Source: Pinibacter soli (GTDB taxonomy: Bacteria > Bacteroidota > Bacteroidia > Chitinophagales > Chitinophagaceae). Taken from it: a stretch of DNA of 64,000 bases. Position 1 is the first letter of the stretch. Each line of letters starts with the position of its first letter. Below, piece after piece: positions 1 through 59,628 of the stretch. The DNA is taken from positions 2,274,189 through 2,338,188 of the forward strand of contig NZ_JASBRG010000007.1 of assembly GCF_029961145.1 (NCBI RefSeq), in the 5' to 3' direction. The position numbers and the translations under genes are program-made. The notes below the pieces were generated by a model, which ran no database searches, was not told where the DNA came from, and saw only the letters and a program-made list of their open reading frames with translations.

Positions 1-1118
1 TGTTCCTCAAACGAGCAATAAGGAAGGTTATAATCCTTAATTAGATCAGTATTTAAATTGGGTTGAGCCGCGCCCATATTAATGTTCCGCAACTCTCTAG
101 TCTTACTCTCCCAGAAATAATATAGGTATTGATTACTTCTTTGGTCAAGATCTAAAAATGCAGCAATACCATCATTTATTGTCGCATCAATCATGCAAAT
201 CTTTGGGATCCCAAGTGTCGCTCCACTATTTGACAGTAGTAGAGTATTGGGTTTTATTTGCCTGGTTTTGTGTAAACCCGCTTCTTTAATAGTATATTGA
301 AAAGTTGTCAAAAACATCCCCACATTGTTTGTCACATCAGCTACTTTCAAAAAAGGGATATTACCCTGATAATATCTCAAATCACCAGCTGGCCTTGGGG
401 AACCTCCACGCACTACTTTACTAATTTCTGAAATCTTCACCCGCTTCCACCCCTCCGGCAATTCCCCATCCTTCACATTCTCATTTGTCAACCTCCCCTC
501 AAATGCCCATTTCAATACACTTTGCCGATAGGTTTTTAGTTGCTGCTGGGCGGTGCGCAGGTTTTCTATGCCTTTGTCTAACTCACTAAAGAGTTCTTCT
601 ATTTTGGAAACAATAGCTTGTTGAGTTTCAATATTTGGAAGAGGAAATTCAAATCGTTTTATAGAGGAAATGCCAACATTTGCTTGAGTAGTTTCAACTA
701 TATACTTTCTAATCTCCTCCCAAATCTTTGGAGACAAAGAATATAAATAAACATACTTTGATAATACTAGATCGCGATCAGGTTTAATAACTGCACACGA
801 ATATGAGACTAGAAATTCCTTATCAAAATCAATGAGAATGTTTTTCCCAATTGTGCCATATCGAGGGAAAATTATATCTCCTCTTTCAGGCTTTATTTTT
901 CTTGATAGATTTAAATAATCCTCTTCCGAAACATACTTTGCATTTTCAAATGAAATCTTTAAATCGTCTGTAAAATCCTTTGTAGACACATAAGGATATC
1001 CAGTTGTTTCTTGCTTCGGCATCTTATGATCGATATCTCCAATTTTCTTACACACATCCCCTAACCTCACCCACTTCCAACCCTCCGGCAATTGTTCGTT
1101 ATTTCCTTCTTCCTTCAT
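1..1118 (-). CDS. hsdS: Type I restriction enzyme specificity subunit HsdS (3' end cut by window edge)
   Basis: DNA-recognition subunit of a type I restriction-modification complex. The reading frame opens at an ATG at 1118 and stays open to base 1, giving 372 residues without a stop; perhaps 40-60 C-terminal residues are missing. Two target-recognition domains are visible, each opened by the same phrase (LPEGWKWV near residue 10, LPEGWKRV near 220). Between them lies the helical spacer at about 163-210 with the family signature IEELFSELDKGIENLRTA and VLKWAFEG. It follows hsdR on the same strand after a 54-base gap, so the two are probably co-transcribed. No methylase gene (hsdM) lies between or upstream of them; it should lie beyond the left edge. 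Family assignment is firm; the target sequence cannot be read from the protein. Confidence 0.9.
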   Translation of the reverse strand, partial: MKEEGNNEQLPEGWKWVRLGDVCKKIGDIDHKMPKQETTGYPYVSTKDFTDDLKISFENAKYVSEEDYLNLSRKIKPERGDIIFPRYGTIGKNILIDFDKEFLVSYSCAVIKPDRDLVLSKYVYLYSLSPKIWEEIRKYIVETTQANVGISSIKRFEFPLPNIETQQAIVSKIEELFSELDKGIENLRTAQQQLKTYRQSVLKWAFEGRLTNENVKDGELPEGWKRVKISEISKVVRGGSPRPAGDLRYYQGNIPFLKVADVTNNVGMFLTTFQYTIKEAGLHKTRQIKPNTLLLSNSGATLGIPKICMIDATINDGIAAFLDLDQRSNQYLYYFWESKTRELRNINMGAAQPNLNTDLIKDYNLPYCSFEE

Positions 1119-1172
1119 TGTTCAATATTGTTATCCAGCACTATCTGGCTCATAAAAATCTGTTTACTTTTT

Positions 1173-3953
1173 TTACGCACTCAACGCCTCATTCAGCTCC
1201 TGCAAAATAAGTTCATAATCGTTTTTGAAAAGCTGATAGAACTTGCCTAGTCCGCCGTTTTTATTAAACGGATCGAGTTCGAAATCTTCTTTTTCTACGT
1301 GGAAGCTGCCGGCCACATAGTCTTTTATCATGCGCAGCCACTGCATTTGTTCTTCGGTAAATTTGGTGGTGGTACCGGCCTGTTTTTTAAATACCCAGGT
1401 TTGAAAGTTTTTGTCCACCATTTTATCATAACTCGTCAACGTGTCGTCTATGCCGCATATGTTGCGTATGAGGCTCACGAGTGCAGTGAGTTCGTTTTTG
1501 GCGGCACCGCCGGCCTGCTTCAGCTGCTCGTATGCACGCCATACATGCGAGGGCGCCAGTAGCGGCTGCTCGCTCGTGAGTTTGTCGCACAGGTCTTTTA
1601 TCATCCGGTAGGTGAGTTCACGGCGGCGGTAAGGCTGGCTATAGAAAATCTGCAACGCAGTGATCTCATCTTTATGGCCCTCCATCCATGCTTTAAAATT
1701 GCTGATGGTCAATTCAGCAGCAGCATCCTGATCTTTTACCCAGCCCATCTTTGTCACCGCATCTATGTTGATGTGGTCTATTACCTGGTCGTATTTTTTG
1801 CGCACATCTACTATGAAGTTGCGCAGCTCAGGATTGTTGAAAACAGCAACTGCTTGTTCAATCAATTTATCGTGCTGCGCTTTCGCTGTTGTATTGATAT
1901 GATCGGGCGATGTGCCGATGTTCTCGCGGATTACAGCTGTCTGTATATTGTTTATCGTATCGGGATCATAGGCATTCAGCAACTGCTTCACCACATGCCC
2001 AATGGATGCCCCACCCGCCTGATCGGCAAAGCTGGCTTTTTCTTTCTCATTAATCTGGCGATCGAGGCGCACAAGTCTGTTAGCAAGTGTGCTCAATATT
2101 TCTTCGCTGGTATTACCCATCGCTACGTTTTGCAGCACATCTTTCAGGCTCATGCCTGGCTTTTTTTCAAGCGGGCGGCTATCTGTTTTTTGAGATTGTT
2201 CTACACCTATGGCATCAATGATCACAAAATGATCTTTGCTAAACTTTGCAGAAGGCGTGCCTTTGGTTCTTAAATCCTCTAGAGAGCAGGTGCGTGTGCC
2301 GCGGCCTTTCATCTGCTCATAGTAGCTGCGGCTCTTTACATCGCGCATGAACACGAGCACTTCCAGCGGGCGAATATCGGTGCCCGTCGCAATCATGTCT
2401 ACGGTTACGGCTATGCGTGGGTAGTAATCGTTGCGAAACTGACTGAGCACGGTTTTGGGGTCTTCATCGCTGCGGTAAGTGATCTTTTTGCAAAACTTAT
2501 TTTCTTCGGCAAATTCTTCGCGCACAATTTCTATAATGTCTTCGGCATGCGAATCCGTTTTGGCGAAGATGAGCGTTTTAGGTACTTCAAATTTTCCATC
2601 CTTATCCAGGCGATCGGGAAACATGAAAGGCAGGTTGTCGCGTATGGCGCGAACGATCATGCGGATAGTGCTTGGATTCACAATGTCTTTATCCAATTGC
2701 TTGCCACTGTATTCAATGTCTTCATCTACCGATTCCCAAAATTTCCTTCGCGTAAGCCGTTCTCGCTTGTCTACTTTTTCGCCGAGTGCAATCGTGCTGC
2801 CATCTTTGGTAATTTTTGTTTCTACTGTAAAAACATTGTAAGGAACAAGCACGCCATCTATCACCGCTTTTTCATAACCATAGTCGCTTACAAGATTTTG
2901 ATTGAAGTAGCCAAACGTCCTGTTGTCGGGCGTTGCAGTGAGGCCCACCTGAAATACGTCAAAGTAATCCAGCACTTGTTTCCACAAATTATAAATGCTG
3001 CGGTGGCACTCATCAATTACTATGAAATCAAAAAACTCTGGTGGTATTTTTTCATTGTACACTACGGGCAATGGTTCCCTTGGTTGAAAACCTTCATTGG
3101 GATTTTCTTCTTCCGCGCTTTCATCCATCTCAGTACCTTTCAATATGGAATACATGCGCTGGATGGTGGAGATGTACACCTGGTTATCTGCAGGAATGAA
3201 ACTGCTTTTTAACCGGGTAACGCCGTATAGTTCGGTAAATTTTCTGTTGTCGTCATTGGGCACAAAGGCCATGAATTCCTGCTCGGCCTGTTCACCAAGG
3301 TTTTTGGTGTCTACCAGGAAAAGAATGCGTTTTGCTTTGGCATATTTTAATAACCGATACACAAAAGTGATAGCAGTAAAGGTTTTGCCGGAACCCGTTG
3401 CCATTTGCACCAATGCCTTTGGATGCGCTTTCTTAAAAGAATCTTCCAGTGTATTGATGGCCGTGATCTGGCAATCTCTTAAATCTCTTTCAACCAAAGC
3501 GGGCAAATCGTGCAGCCTTGTTCGCAGCGATTTTTCCTCTTTTGCATATCCGGCAAATGTTTCCGGACGATGGAAACTAAATACAGGTCTTGACCTTGGC
3601 TTTGGATCACGATAGTCGGTAAAGCGGGTAAGTTCGCCCGTGCTTTCGTACACAAAAGGTAGCGGGTCGTTTTGTAAATATTTTAGTTTGGCGGTAGCAT
3701 AGCCTTCACTTTGCTCTTCGTGAATGGTAAGGTGCTCGCCTTCTTCTGCACGTTTGGCTTCTATTATGCCGACGGGCTTTTTATTGACGAAAAGTACATA
3801 GTCCGCGGGACCAATATCTGTTTGATATTCTCTGATGGCAATGCCAACGCCGGCACCAAGGTTGATGCTCGTTTTATTTTGAATGATCCAGCCGCTCCGC
3901 AGTAGCTCGGCGTCGATCCTGTCTCTGGCAAGTTGCTCGGGGTTTTGATTCAA
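1173..3953 (-). CDS. hsdR: Type I restriction enzyme R subunit HsdR
   Basis: Motor and nuclease subunit of the type I restriction complex: ATP-driven DNA translocation, then cleavage. The 926 residues show an N-terminal PD-(D/E)xK nuclease (Asp51 in GPADYVLF, catalytic pair in IIEAKR at 64-69), then a DEAD/DEAH-type helicase with Walker A MATGSGKT (about 184-191), DECH box (314-317), TATP motif (339-342), and in the second RecA-like domain ATGTDIRPLEV and QMKGRGTR. The rest matches the EcoEI-type R C-terminal region. Length is normal and all key residues are present, so the enzyme looks intact. It is the first gene of the hsdR-hsdS unit; the next gene upstream is unrelated and 130 bases away. 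This order, R first and S second without M between, is less usual than hsdR-M-S. Confidence 0.95.
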   Translation of the reverse strand: MNQNPEQLARDRIDAELLRSGWIIQNKTSINLGAGVGIAIREYQTDIGPADYVLFVNKKPVGIIEAKRAEEGEHLTIHEEQSEGYATAKLKYLQNDPLPFVYESTGELTRFTDYRDPKPRSRPVFSFHRPETFAGYAKEEKSLRTRLHDLPALVERDLRDCQITAINTLEDSFKKAHPKALVQMATGSGKTFTAITFVYRLLKYAKAKRILFLVDTKNLGEQAEQEFMAFVPNDDNRKFTELYGVTRLKSSFIPADNQVYISTIQRMYSILKGTEMDESAEEENPNEGFQPREPLPVVYNEKIPPEFFDFIVIDECHRSIYNLWKQVLDYFDVFQVGLTATPDNRTFGYFNQNLVSDYGYEKAVIDGVLVPYNVFTVETKITKDGSTIALGEKVDKRERLTRRKFWESVDEDIEYSGKQLDKDIVNPSTIRMIVRAIRDNLPFMFPDRLDKDGKFEVPKTLIFAKTDSHAEDIIEIVREEFAEENKFCKKITYRSDEDPKTVLSQFRNDYYPRIAVTVDMIATGTDIRPLEVLVFMRDVKSRSYYEQMKGRGTRTCSLEDLRTKGTPSAKFSKDHFVIIDAIGVEQSQKTDSRPLEKKPGMSLKDVLQNVAMGNTSEEILSTLANRLVRLDRQINEKEKASFADQAGGASIGHVVKQLLNAYDPDTINNIQTAVIRENIGTSPDHINTTAKAQHDKLIEQAVAVFNNPELRNFIVDVRKKYDQVIDHINIDAVTKMGWVKDQDAAAELTISNFKAWMEGHKDEITALQIFYSQPYRRRELTYRMIKDLCDKLTSEQPLLAPSHVWRAYEQLKQAGGAAKNELTALVSLIRNICGIDDTLTSYDKMVDKNFQTWVFKKQAGTTTKFTEEQMQWLRMIKDYVAGSFHVEKEDFELDPFNKNGGLGKFYQLFKNDYELILQELNEALSA

Positions 3954-4879: not shown

Positions 4880-5755
4880 TTACTTGCTGTTGCCTTTTCC
4901 GTCACACAGGTACTGCACGGTTACGTTGCCATAGATAAAAGGCAGTAGTGTAACAAGCCCCTGCAAGTACTGAAAGCCGTCGAAATACACCGGCAATCCG
5001 TAGTTGTTATACGTAGCGCTGCTAAATGAATTATTTATACTATAATTCCTGTCAATGAACATCCACATTTTATTGGTTTGCCTGATGCTTATTTTATCAT
5101 CGTATGGGGCGATCCTGAATGTATCATTATAAGGTTGCAACGGATTTGTCGTGCCGCGGTATTGCCTTGCCTGATAAGCTAAATTGCCGCGTCCATCATA
5201 CTTATAGGCATAGTGATATGTGTTCGCAAAACTTCCAAATGCCCAAACACTATCGTCACTGGCAACCACCCTGTCATAAGCATCGTAGTTAATTATAGAA
5301 ACACTCAAAAACTGCGGAGACGGCACCACTGCGCCATCGGGTCCAATGACCGTGAATCCGTACATGGTGTCTCTTATAATCTGGTCCGCCTTATTGAAGT
5401 CAAATTTATGCCAGGCCCACACCTGGCCTGGTGTTGTTGGAGTAGCCGTGAAAGAATATAGCACCTGGCTGACGCGATGCTTTTTGTCATAAATAAAAAA
5501 CGTATTGGGATTACCGGTGCCCAACGGAGTTGCAATAATGCTTTCCAGCTCATTTCGTTTGTTGTAATTAAAAACGTAGTTGGCGGGACCATACTGACCG
5601 ACAGAGGAGACTGTTTGCACCTGGCAGATATCAGAAACATCTTTGCCATTACCAGGCTTATTGATATAATCAATTAATTTCTGACAACTGGTTAAGAAAG
5701 TCGCGAAGGCGAGAGACAGGGCAAACACTGCATTTGCCAGTTTGTTCTTTTTCAT
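4880..5755 (-). CDS. Hypothetical lipoprotein with YD-like strand repeats
   Basis: Exported lipoprotein of unknown function. The ATG at 5755 is preferred over an in-frame start at 5857 because it is followed at once by a typical signal peptide (MKKNKLANAVFALSLA) and a lipobox TSC with the Cys at residue 24; 291 residues result. The mature part has repeated segments such as FNYNKRNELESI, FIYDKKHRVSQV, YDAYDRVV and YKYDGRGNLAYQ, a pattern resembling the YD repeats of RHS-like and DUF4595-type Bacteroidota surface proteins. No enzyme motif was seen. It is likely anchored in the outer membrane. Specific family membership is uncertain. Confidence 0.7.
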   Translation of the reverse strand: MKKNKLANAVFALSLAFATFLTSCQKLIDYINKPGNGKDVSDICQVQTVSSVGQYGPANYVFNYNKRNELESIIATPLGTGNPNTFFIYDKKHRVSQVLYSFTATPTTPGQVWAWHKFDFNKADQIIRDTMYGFTVIGPDGAVVPSPQFLSVSIINYDAYDRVVASDDSVWAFGSFANTYHYAYKYDGRGNLAYQARQYRGTTNPLQPYNDTFRIAPYDDKISIRQTNKMWMFIDRNYSINNSFSSATYNNYGLPVYFDGFQYLQGLVTLLPFIYGNVTVQYLCDGKGNSK

Positions 5756-6022
5756 AAAAGAGGGTTTATATGGGAGGTTAAAAATTGAACCTGGGTTTAA
5801 CGGATTGTGAGGGTATAGACATTTTATCACGCGAAAAAGCAATGCACAACGACTCAATCAAATAATCAACTCGTTTATTTGCATGACAATTGACGTAGGA
5901 GGAACAATAAATGCGGTTGGCAGAGGTTTGTTTTGTCAATATATTAATTTATCGGGAATAAAGGAAGCAATGGAAACATTTTATTGCCAGAAGTTCTACC
6001 AGCGGAAGCGTCATCTGCGTGC

Positions 6023-8095
6023 TCACTTTTCCCAAAACAACAATGCAAAGCCAAATGCCTCCACTTTATATTCCTTACCGGCAACACTTTTCGCCTCTTT
6101 CCTATGGGAAATATCATCGGGAGAGGCTAGTGCGGTATCGACCCATCGCTTCCACTGCACGCCGGGTGGCGGCTCGGGCAGTTCAAACTCAAGGGCTTCT
6201 TTATGAGCGTTAAGCATAAAATGCATGGTCAAATTTCCGCTGAGTGATTCTACCGTGAAAGCAACCGAGTGAGAGTTGGGCAACCAGTCAGCTGCATTGA
6301 GTTTGATGCCGTGCCAGGAGATAACAGCCTTGCCCAAAAGTTGGTTTAATGTCATGCTATATTCTGGTTTCGACATATCGCGCTCCAAGCGAATAACGAT
6401 CAGATTTTTTGTAAATCGCAACAGCCCGGCATGCTTGTCAACCAGCGACCAGTCAAACCAACTCAACTCATTATTCTGGCAATAGGCGTTGTTGTTGCCG
6501 TTTTGTGTTCTGCGTACTTCATCACCCATCAGTATCATTGGCGTGCCAACGGAGAGCAAAGTGAGTGCAAGAAAATTCTTTACCTGCCGGTTGCGTATAG
6601 TTTCAATAGCGGGATCATTTGTTGGGCCTTCTATGCCAAAATTGTAGCTGCAATTGTCATTGCAACCATCCTGGTTGTTTTCCCCGTTAGCTTCGTTGTG
6701 TTTCTGATTGTAGGAAACAAGATCATTGAGTGTGAATCCATCATGGCAGGTAACAAAATTGACGCTCTGTTCCGGGTCGCGATTGCGATAACTATAAATA
6801 TCCGGGCTTCCGATCAGGCGGGTTACGAGTTGCGACAAAGTGTTTTCGTCTCCCCGCATGAATTTTCGAAGATCATCGCGAAAGACCCCGTTCCACTCCT
6901 TCCATCTGTCACCCGCAAAACTACCAACCTGGTACAATCCCGCAGCATCCCATGCTTCGGCGATGAGCTTGGTACCGGCTAATTCGGGATCAGAATCGAT
7001 GTCCCACAACACCGGCGGATTCTCGATGGCTGAGCCTTTTTCATCTCTTGACAAAATAGAAGCCAAGTCAAAGCGAAAACCATCTACATGCATTTCCGAA
7101 ACCCAAAAACGGAGGCTGTCAATGATCATTCTTCGCACGATCGGTTGATTGGCATTTAGAGTATTGCCTGTGCCGGAAAAGTTGGAGTAATACTGTTTGT
7201 CATTTTCTAAAATATAATACACTGAATTATCTATACCCCGGTAACAAAATGAAGGACCATCGTGACTTCCTTCTGCTGTATGGTTGAACACTACATCCAA
7301 TATCACTTCTATACCCACTTTGTGCAAGGCTTTCACCATGTCGCGAAAATCATTCAACACCTGCATGTGATCTTTGGAAGAACTATAAGCCTGGTGCGGC
7401 GCAAAAAATGACACGGGGCTATATCCCCAATAATTGATCATTCCCTCCGGGCTGTCCTGTGCATCGAACTGAAACACGGGCAACAGCTCTACCGCTGTAA
7501 CTCCCAGCTCTTTGAGATAGGGGATCTTTTCAATAACACCGCCATACGTGCCGCGTTTCGCGGCTTCTATAGTTGAATTAGGGTTGAGTGTAAATCCGGC
7601 AGTATGCATTTCATAAATAACGGTTTCTGCAAATGACCGTTCAATAGGCTTGTCATTTTCCCAATCGTACACCGAAAGGTCAGCAACAGCGCTTTTCATC
7701 GCCGGTGTACCGAGTTTCCTTTCATCGGCATTTGCACGCCTGTTATATTTTTCCGGCACGGCCACCACATTTGCATAAGGATCGAGTAGTATTGAAGTGG
7801 CATCGTACCTGTGTCCGTTTGCAGGCTCATGCGGGCCGTCGATTCTGTATGCGTACAATTGCCCGCTTGTAAGGCCGGGAACATACACATGCCAGTATTG
7901 ATCGGTTCGATTTTTTTTCGGATCGAGCTTTATTGTCTTGTTTGGTTCGATAGCTTCTACATTATCAAACAGTAATAATTCAACGGCTGTACCATTTTTG
8001 CAGAACAAAGAAAAATTCACGCCTCCGGGAACGATCGTCGAACCCAGTGGAAAAGTTTCGCCATATTCGTGGATGTGTTTTTTTGCGACTTGCAT
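6023..8095 (-). CDS. glgX: Glycogen debranching enzyme GlgX (GH13 isoamylase type)
   Basis: Cytoplasmic hydrolase that cuts alpha-1,6 branch points of limit dextrin left by glycogen phosphorylase. The 690-residue protein starts with a CBM48-type domain (about 8-110), followed by the GH13 barrel. The conserved regions are present: DVVFNH at 267-272, GFRFDL with nucleophile Asp343, LIAEAWD with acid/base Glu380, and VTCHDGFTL at about 448-456 with the transition-state Asp452. A C-terminal beta domain follows. It lies downstream of glgP on the same strand after 318 bases that hold a palindromic repeat, so the two enzymes form a glycogen-degradation pair, though separate transcription cannot be excluded. 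A maltooligosyl-trehalose-type enzyme is less likely because the motif set and neighbour fit GlgX. Confidence 0.92.
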   Translation of the reverse strand: MQVAKKHIHEYGETFPLGSTIVPGGVNFSLFCKNGTAVELLLFDNVEAIEPNKTIKLDPKKNRTDQYWHVYVPGLTSGQLYAYRIDGPHEPANGHRYDATSILLDPYANVVAVPEKYNRRANADERKLGTPAMKSAVADLSVYDWENDKPIERSFAETVIYEMHTAGFTLNPNSTIEAAKRGTYGGVIEKIPYLKELGVTAVELLPVFQFDAQDSPEGMINYWGYSPVSFFAPHQAYSSSKDHMQVLNDFRDMVKALHKVGIEVILDVVFNHTAEGSHDGPSFCYRGIDNSVYYILENDKQYYSNFSGTGNTLNANQPIVRRMIIDSLRFWVSEMHVDGFRFDLASILSRDEKGSAIENPPVLWDIDSDPELAGTKLIAEAWDAAGLYQVGSFAGDRWKEWNGVFRDDLRKFMRGDENTLSQLVTRLIGSPDIYSYRNRDPEQSVNFVTCHDGFTLNDLVSYNQKHNEANGENNQDGCNDNCSYNFGIEGPTNDPAIETIRNRQVKNFLALTLLSVGTPMILMGDEVRRTQNGNNNAYCQNNELSWFDWSLVDKHAGLLRFTKNLIVIRLERDMSKPEYSMTLNQLLGKAVISWHGIKLNAADWLPNSHSVAFTVESLSGNLTMHFMLNAHKEALEFELPEPPPGVQWKRWVDTALASPDDISHRKEAKSVAGKEYKVEAFGFALLFWEK

Positions 8096-42576: not shown

Positions 42577-42595
42577 TCAGTATCGTTTAGTTAAA
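42577..42595 (+). other. Solitary sequence resembling the end of the 59359-59560 element
   Basis: TCAGTATCGTTTAGTTAAA matches 16 of 19 bases of the inverted end (TCAATGTCGTTTAGTTAAG) of the MITE-like element. It lies 8 bases after the stop codon of the poly-HAMP kinase. It may be the scar of an old insertion, or chance in AT-rich DNA. Confidence 0.4.
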
Positions 42596-43866: not shown

Positions 43867-43882
43867 TAACTGAGTAACTATG

Positions 43883-43986
43883 CTCTGCAGGCTTGTAGCC
43901 TTGCAGCTCTATTCTATGGTCTTTGACGATAACCAATTGCCAGAGGCAACAAAATAATCCTGCAAAGCTACAAGCCCCGAGCAGAG
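43883..43986. repeat. Palindrome between convergent genes
   Basis: CTCTGC, AGGCTTGTAGCCTTGCAG (43883-43906) pairs with CTGCAAAGCTACAAGCCCCG and AGCAGAG (43960-43986), flanked by AACTGAGTAA and CAGTTATT words. The kinase gene and the DsbA-like gene converge here, so it can serve both as a terminator. Confidence 0.7.
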
Positions 43987-59227: not shown

Positions 59228-59628
59228 CTTCTGAATATTTATACAATTTTACGAAACAGCTTTCATTTTTTGCTAAAAAAATTAGTTTTCATATTTACTA
59301 CAATCTTAGCATTGATTTTCAATCAGCTAAAGTAACACAGAATTTGGGAGTTAGGAATTCAATGTCGTTTAGTTAAGGTGTTTGAAAAAACAAAAGCATC
59401 TCGCTTGTCATCCTGAGGAACGAGGGATCTGGCCTAACACTAACGAACACTAAGCGTAAACAATCACGCAGATCCCTCCTTCGTCGGGATGACAAGCAGT
59501 CTTTCTTTTCTGGCCATAGCAACTAAGTAATTGAAAAGTTGCTTAACTAAACGACATTGAGTTAGGAATTAGAAAAAAGCAGTCGTCCGCTAATTCTAAT
59601 TCCTAATTTCTAACTTCTGATTCCTCAT
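59228..59628. other. Gap between NtrY-like kinase and DUF2130 genes
   Basis: Both genes are on the minus strand, so this gap ends the kinase transcript and starts that of the DUF2130 gene. It is mostly filled by the MITE-like element. Behind the element, AATTCTAATTCCTAATTTC at 59594-59612 gives weak complementarity with the left flank; otherwise nothing was seen. Confidence 0.6.
59359..59560. mobile_element. MITE-like element with nested palindrome
   Basis: The 19-base ends TCAATGTCGTTTAGTTAAG (59359-59377) and its exact inverse (59542-59560) enclose 202 bases. A direct repeat GTTAGGAAT (59350-59358 and 59561-59569) flanks it and looks like a 9-base target duplication. Inside, CTTGTCATCC...GAGGGATCT (59404-59430) pairs with AGATCCCTC...GGGATGACAAG (59470-59496) at 24 of 27 positions. 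No open reading frame fills it, so it would need a transposase in trans. A 9-base duplication and such ends point to an IS4-type family (inference). Confidence 0.8.

Follow-up and report, generated by a model that had tools for sequence, protein, structure and literature searches.

A 200-bp MITE with IS4-type ends and a hairpin core between genes of Pinibacter soli

E. coli IS4 and the IS4 subgroup are characterised by ends of the form -AATR--------WTW, target repeats of 10-13 bp, a length of 1400-1650 bp and a YREK motif (De Palmenaer et al. 2008, PMC2266710, Table 1). Among the Bacteroidota, MITEs with IS-like ends have been described in Porphyromonas gingivalis (BrickBuilt, MITE293 and 464/PgRS), where distinct families combine similar ends with unrelated interiors (PMC4596501). 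CGTC-tagged palindromic repeats are short intergenic palindromic hairpins with Bacteroidetes among their hosts, for which no dedicated transposase was found (PMC3733652). Besides, the Correia element, QMITE2 and Chunjie are MITEs of ∼200 bp; QMITE2 folds stably, and both QMITE2 and Chunjie have partial copies devoid of ends (reviewed in PMC10969869).

The element reported here lies in a 64,000-nucleotide stretch of Pinibacter soli DNA (the window). It resembles the IS4 subgroup in its ends and duplication length and, via related Bacteroidota IS, in size, YREK motif and DDE_Tnp_1 domain, yet differs in having no transposase, in measuring 200 bp as opposed to 1400-1650 bp and in its target, AATTnnnAATT. 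Its ends are unrelated to those of the P. gingivalis MITEs (e.g. AAGACCTTTGCA / CCGAAAGGTCTC), whose interiors are tandem repeats rather than the one hairpin seen here (PMC4596501), and it is set apart from the Correia element, QMITE2 and Chunjie by ends, target sites and phylum. A second family of the same genome (family B, below) has the word CGTCATTGCGAG in its core, that is, a CGTC-type word inside IS4-type ends, a likeness drawn from the published description as distinct from the consensus sequences in the figures of PMC3733652. The MITE family to which the 200-bp element belongs (family A) is apparently undescribed; in the literature collection searched by sequence word, no paper has the end or either of two long core words, and short words gave unrelated matches.

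The element occupies positions 59360-59559 and is free of genes, with none of the open reading frames of at least 60 aa in a program-made list falling within it. Its edges were set by the duplication register across copies, ∼29 of which are near full length. Perfect 18-bp terminal inverted repeats, CAATGTCGTTTAGTTAAG, are found at 59360-59377 (+ strand) and 59542-59559 (- strand) by end-word search and duplication register, and the exact 11-bp target duplication AGTTAGGAATT flanks them at 59349-59359 and 59560-59570 (both + strand). A first-pass annotation of this DNA had described perfect 19-base inverted ends, a length of 202 bases and a 9-bp target duplication. Inverted ends of 19 bases without a mismatch do exist (59359-59377, +; 59542-59560, -), as does a direct repeat, which extends to 12 nt around the ends (GAGTTAGGAATT; 59348-59359 and 59559-59570). 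Comparison of copies, however, assigns the first T and the last A to the target duplication, so that the ends shrink to 18 bp, the element to 200 bp, and the duplication grows to 11 bp. The 9-bp duplication ATTnnnAAT, which goes with the 19-bp ends, is compatible with most copies, yet it represents the inside of the 11-bp one. At up to three mismatches, the window contains three occurrences of the end word where chance would give 0.04; the third, end-like word (TCAGTATCGTTTAGTTAAA, 42577-42595, 3 mismatches) lies just 3' of a gene with no partner seen, and is either a decayed end or a chance match. Close to the element, an AT-rich short-period tract (59594-59626, +) contains a free AATTCCTAATT target at 59598-59608 and, judged by sequence and target-site comparison, is of the type on which family A usually lands.

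The host genome (5.91 Mb, 12 contigs) holds many further copies, as the first-pass annotation had anticipated. A search with the whole element placed the ∼29 near-full-length copies on contigs C1 and C7-C12, with identities of 83-96%, and also retrieved shorter or more divergent ones; the end word at up to three mismatches occurs 84 times compared with 5 for a reversed control pattern. All copies are intergenic, and no frame of at least 400 bp crosses any of the rejoined sites. Copies are located 3' of genes: by a simple reading of neighbouring open reading frames, nine lie between convergent genes and one between divergent genes (p = 0.02), with nearly all others between genes in tandem.

Within this genome, 13 elements are flanked by exactly 11 identical bases, among them a family C element (L032), while of the others one shows an 18-bp duplication (in a short-period tract), two show 10 bp and six have one mismatch at 11; exact duplications of at least 11 bp are thus present in 14 elements, this copy included. 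The 11-bp sites (n = 13) align as A12 A11 T13 T12 n n n A11 A13 T12 T11, i.e. as the palindromic target AATTnnnAATT. In family A, the 11-bp duplication corresponds to an element read as CAATG...CATTG, and the same 11-bp copies read in a 10-bp register mostly show 4-7 mismatches. The 11-bp register is fixed by two copies, L021 (flanked on both sides by GATTAAAAACC) and L010 (AATTGCAAATA), in which the outermost base goes with the target sequence, not with that of the element. A caveat applies to some duplications, such as that of L004: they are situated in short-period tracts, which can imitate a repeat of this length. In other genomes, the same end word is accompanied by a 10-bp duplication in 20 of 21 exact cases among the matches listed, as opposed to 11 bp for family A here, and family B also has 10-bp duplications in the host genome (L090 exact, L092 with one mismatch). 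This difference between 10 and 11 bp suggests two transposase lines.

Empty sites were sought in two congeners (G001 and G002), in which both genes neighbouring the element are present at 85-88% identity and the element is absent from the orthologous site. There, the intergenic regions measure 60 and 108 bp, compared with ∼300 and 340 in the window. The site is hence unoccupied in relatives, whereas the single target copy that the first-pass annotation had proposed to look for is unreadable, the congener intergenic DNA at this position being diverged. Other copies provide clean sites: the flanks of L008, joined without the element and the second duplication, match continuous DNA in both congeners along their entire 400 bases (83 and 86%), and the joined flanks of L005, L014, L007 and L022 do so in one or both. 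Given the large number of dispersed copies bounded by the same ends, their target duplications, their intergenic position and the empty sites in relatives, the element is a non-autonomous DNA transposon, which upholds the initial proposal.

Very probably, it is a type II MITE, having only its ends in common with an autonomous element, mobilised by transposases of the IS4 subgroup of the IS4 family. This placement rests on the ends, the duplication length and the transposases that accompany identical or similar ends elsewhere in the Bacteroidota. Specifically, the element ends read CAATG followed by TTA at positions 14-16, which fits -AATR--------WTW; the 11-bp repeat falls within 10-13 bp; and the E. 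coli K-12 IS4 ends match the element end at 14/18 (TAATGCCGATCAGTTAAG) and 13/18 positions. Every feature listed for the subgroup in PMC2266710 is found, size and YREK motif via the partners in other genomes. When genome contigs were scanned with TCAATGTCGTTTnnTTAAG, at least 115 stretches were obtained, nearly all from Bacteroidota by title, and many of those among the matches listed are separated from a contig end by 100-150 bp, a pattern that IS disrupting assemblies would produce. In one (L211), a 19-bp end identical to that of the element is followed by a fragment of an IS4-type transposase (PF01609, E 5e-7), this IS being cut by the contig end before its second end. Two complete IS of 1440 bp are present in G454, with an end (CAATGTCATTAAGTTAAG) that matches the element end at 16/18 positions and with 10-bp duplications, exact in one copy and with 2 mismatches in the other. 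Their 435-aa transposase is related to E. coli InsG (E 4e-14) and can be read to contain Y-x2-R-x3-E-x6-K (YYKRWNVETFYDELK); the domain of the partner transposases in other Bacteroidota is DDE_Tnp_1. G005, a relative from the same family, has an IS whose end, TCAATGTCGTTTCCTTAAG, is of the family B type; it shows nine transposase starts, the majority of which apparently lie at contig edges. Terrimonas ferruginea (L120) has the same end together with the same following bases, in keeping with the placement of the window in the Chitinophagaceae.

A full-length IS with such ends, which the first-pass annotation had proposed to look for, thus exists in other Bacteroidota, with same or similar ends, but was not found in the host genome. 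There, a search with DDE_Tnp_1 (PF01609) gave no hits, two transposase protein probes found no match, and the ends at up to three mismatches included no convincing pair more than ∼300 bp apart. L086, an IS-like candidate with an end pair 1417 bp apart, encloses a 309-aa frame that was not taken for a transposase. Nor does any of the ends detected in the host genome lie near a contig edge, which makes loss of the transposase, or its supply from an outside source, likelier than a gap in the assembly. The absence of a partner transposase does not bear on the definition of a MITE; it weakens any claim that the family is currently active. Phage records gave no match, and a search of viral contigs returned one weak transposase relative. 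Separately, L226 (∼5074-6200) has a Y1_Tnp gene near an IS4-type end without a good partner, with repeats CCCGATGGCGCGGATTTGTAATCCGTG.

From these data, the following course of events can be envisaged. An IS with matching ends would produce a DDE transposase with the YREK motif, which would bind the 18-bp ends, cut the element out and join it to an 11-bp target AATTnnnAATT, presumably by cut-and-paste, and repair of the gaps would leave the 11-bp duplication. Such targets are abundant in AT-rich, (TAATTCC)n-like intergenic tracts, mostly 3' of genes, and a hairpin that, with its flanking T-rich tracts, serves as a terminator or 3'-end structure could render insertions there harmless. The transposase would since have been lost from the host genome or be supplied from outside.

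The hairpin itself, which is nearly symmetrical, spans 59403-59497, with 29-nt arms at 59403-59431 and 59469-59497 that are 90% complementary, and a loop of ∼37 nt. Folded as RNA, this core reaches -49 kcal/mol (z = -9.9 vs. shuffles), and T-rich tracts lie directly outside it on both strands. These sequence features make it probable that the core serves to terminate transcription or to form an RNA 3'-end structure. A scan for intrinsic terminators did not list it, the loop exceeding the limit of the scan, and in Rfam 15 nothing scored above the gathering threshold; sub-threshold matches to microRNA models were put down to chance. The nested palindrome had been noticed in the first-pass annotation, which is correct, together with the idea that it was captured by, or had inserted into, this copy, which is refuted by the presence of the palindrome in nearly all family A copies. 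Capture may have taken place in an ancestor.

The same type of end also carries other cores. Two further families of the host genome (L089-L093, L088, L098 and L099) share the end type of family A and have unrelated hairpin cores: family B, of ∼290 bp and with eight good copies, whose core contains the CGTCATTGCGAG and GAAGCAATCTC words, and family C, of 199-260 bp and with three copies, whose core contains CCTACGGACA and CCCTACGGGCA. Across the host and many other genomes, at least 76 end pairs are supported by duplications, and among the matches listed their interiors group into 32 mutually dissimilar clusters. Representatives of 27 of these 32 clusters fold at z below -3 (median -4.8, among the matches listed), compared with 3 of 56 length-matched flanking segments. 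The sample was chosen by ends and not by cores, so the excess of hairpins is not built in, with the reservations that end matching allowed mismatches, that the host genome was also queried with the whole element and that the counts are those among the matches listed. One IS4 end type thus carries many hairpin words. Tentatively, and with the odds somewhat against it, we propose that IS4-subgroup ends may act as a general Bacteroidota vehicle that repeatedly acquires and spreads unrelated hairpin words, and that several widespread intergenic palindrome families with no known mobiliser, the CGTCATTGCGAG type included, may have been dispersed by IS4-type transposases, with ends that later decayed and hairpins that persisted. 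If true, this would provide a mechanical reason for the recurrence of hairpin words between Bacteroidota genes, and it makes testable what moves CGTC-type palindromes, a question left open by the 2013 survey (PMC3733652). The single element is ordinary; the pattern of cargo across cores matters more.

Both the host genome and the two congeners contain core copies that lack recognisable ends, and the occurrence of unrelated hairpin words with the same end type is also what one might see if the core were an independent, REP-like element. It could then have been spread by another enzyme, e.g. a RAYT, and captured ancestrally by an IS4-type end pair that drove its spread only later, a history we regard as rather unlikely. 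A tandem array of ∼235-bp units without IS4 ends (C10:49.6-52.8 kb) and three Y1_Tnp genes encoded in the host genome fit with it, yet the only core matches adjacent to these genes are weak hits to the 10-base GTCATCCNGA word, and in the host genome this core does not form the hairpin repeats on either side of a Y1 transposase gene that are the hallmark of REP/RAYT systems. Besides, several seemingly end-less copies retain remnants: L254 and L256 have one good end, and L257, L258 and L265 weak matches, their inner flanks scoring 57-96 compared with shuffle maxima of 37-43. Decay of old MITEs explains these free cores with a damaged end or matching flanks. Others (L262, L264 and L268-L270) show nothing clear above shuffles, which would be compatible with an independent hairpin repeat captured long ago. 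That the core is instead an immobile structural repeat, a terminator or RNA element kept in place by selection, would agree with its strong hairpin and its position at gene ends, but is contradicted by the target duplications, the empty sites and the dispersed copies of high identity, and we consider it highly improbable. Dispersal of family A as an IS4-type MITE hence remains our preferred reading.

Further repeats were seen along the way. In L087 (C10:49000-53500, ∼560-3850), the tandem ∼235-bp units, partly masked as N, contain the core hairpin in both orientations and lack IS4 ends. A RAYT-like gene on contig C9 (L237; Y1_Tnp gene at 119698-119901) sits between inverted 50-nt repeats, GCTCTGCAAGGCTTGTAGCCTTGCAG, and words similar to these occur in the window at ∼43880-43985, 3' of a response regulator/kinase gene. 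A second Y1_Tnp gene (L236, C11:608157) is preceded by a palindrome-rich stretch with GCTAAGCTGCATGTCTGCGCCAAC and its inverted partner.
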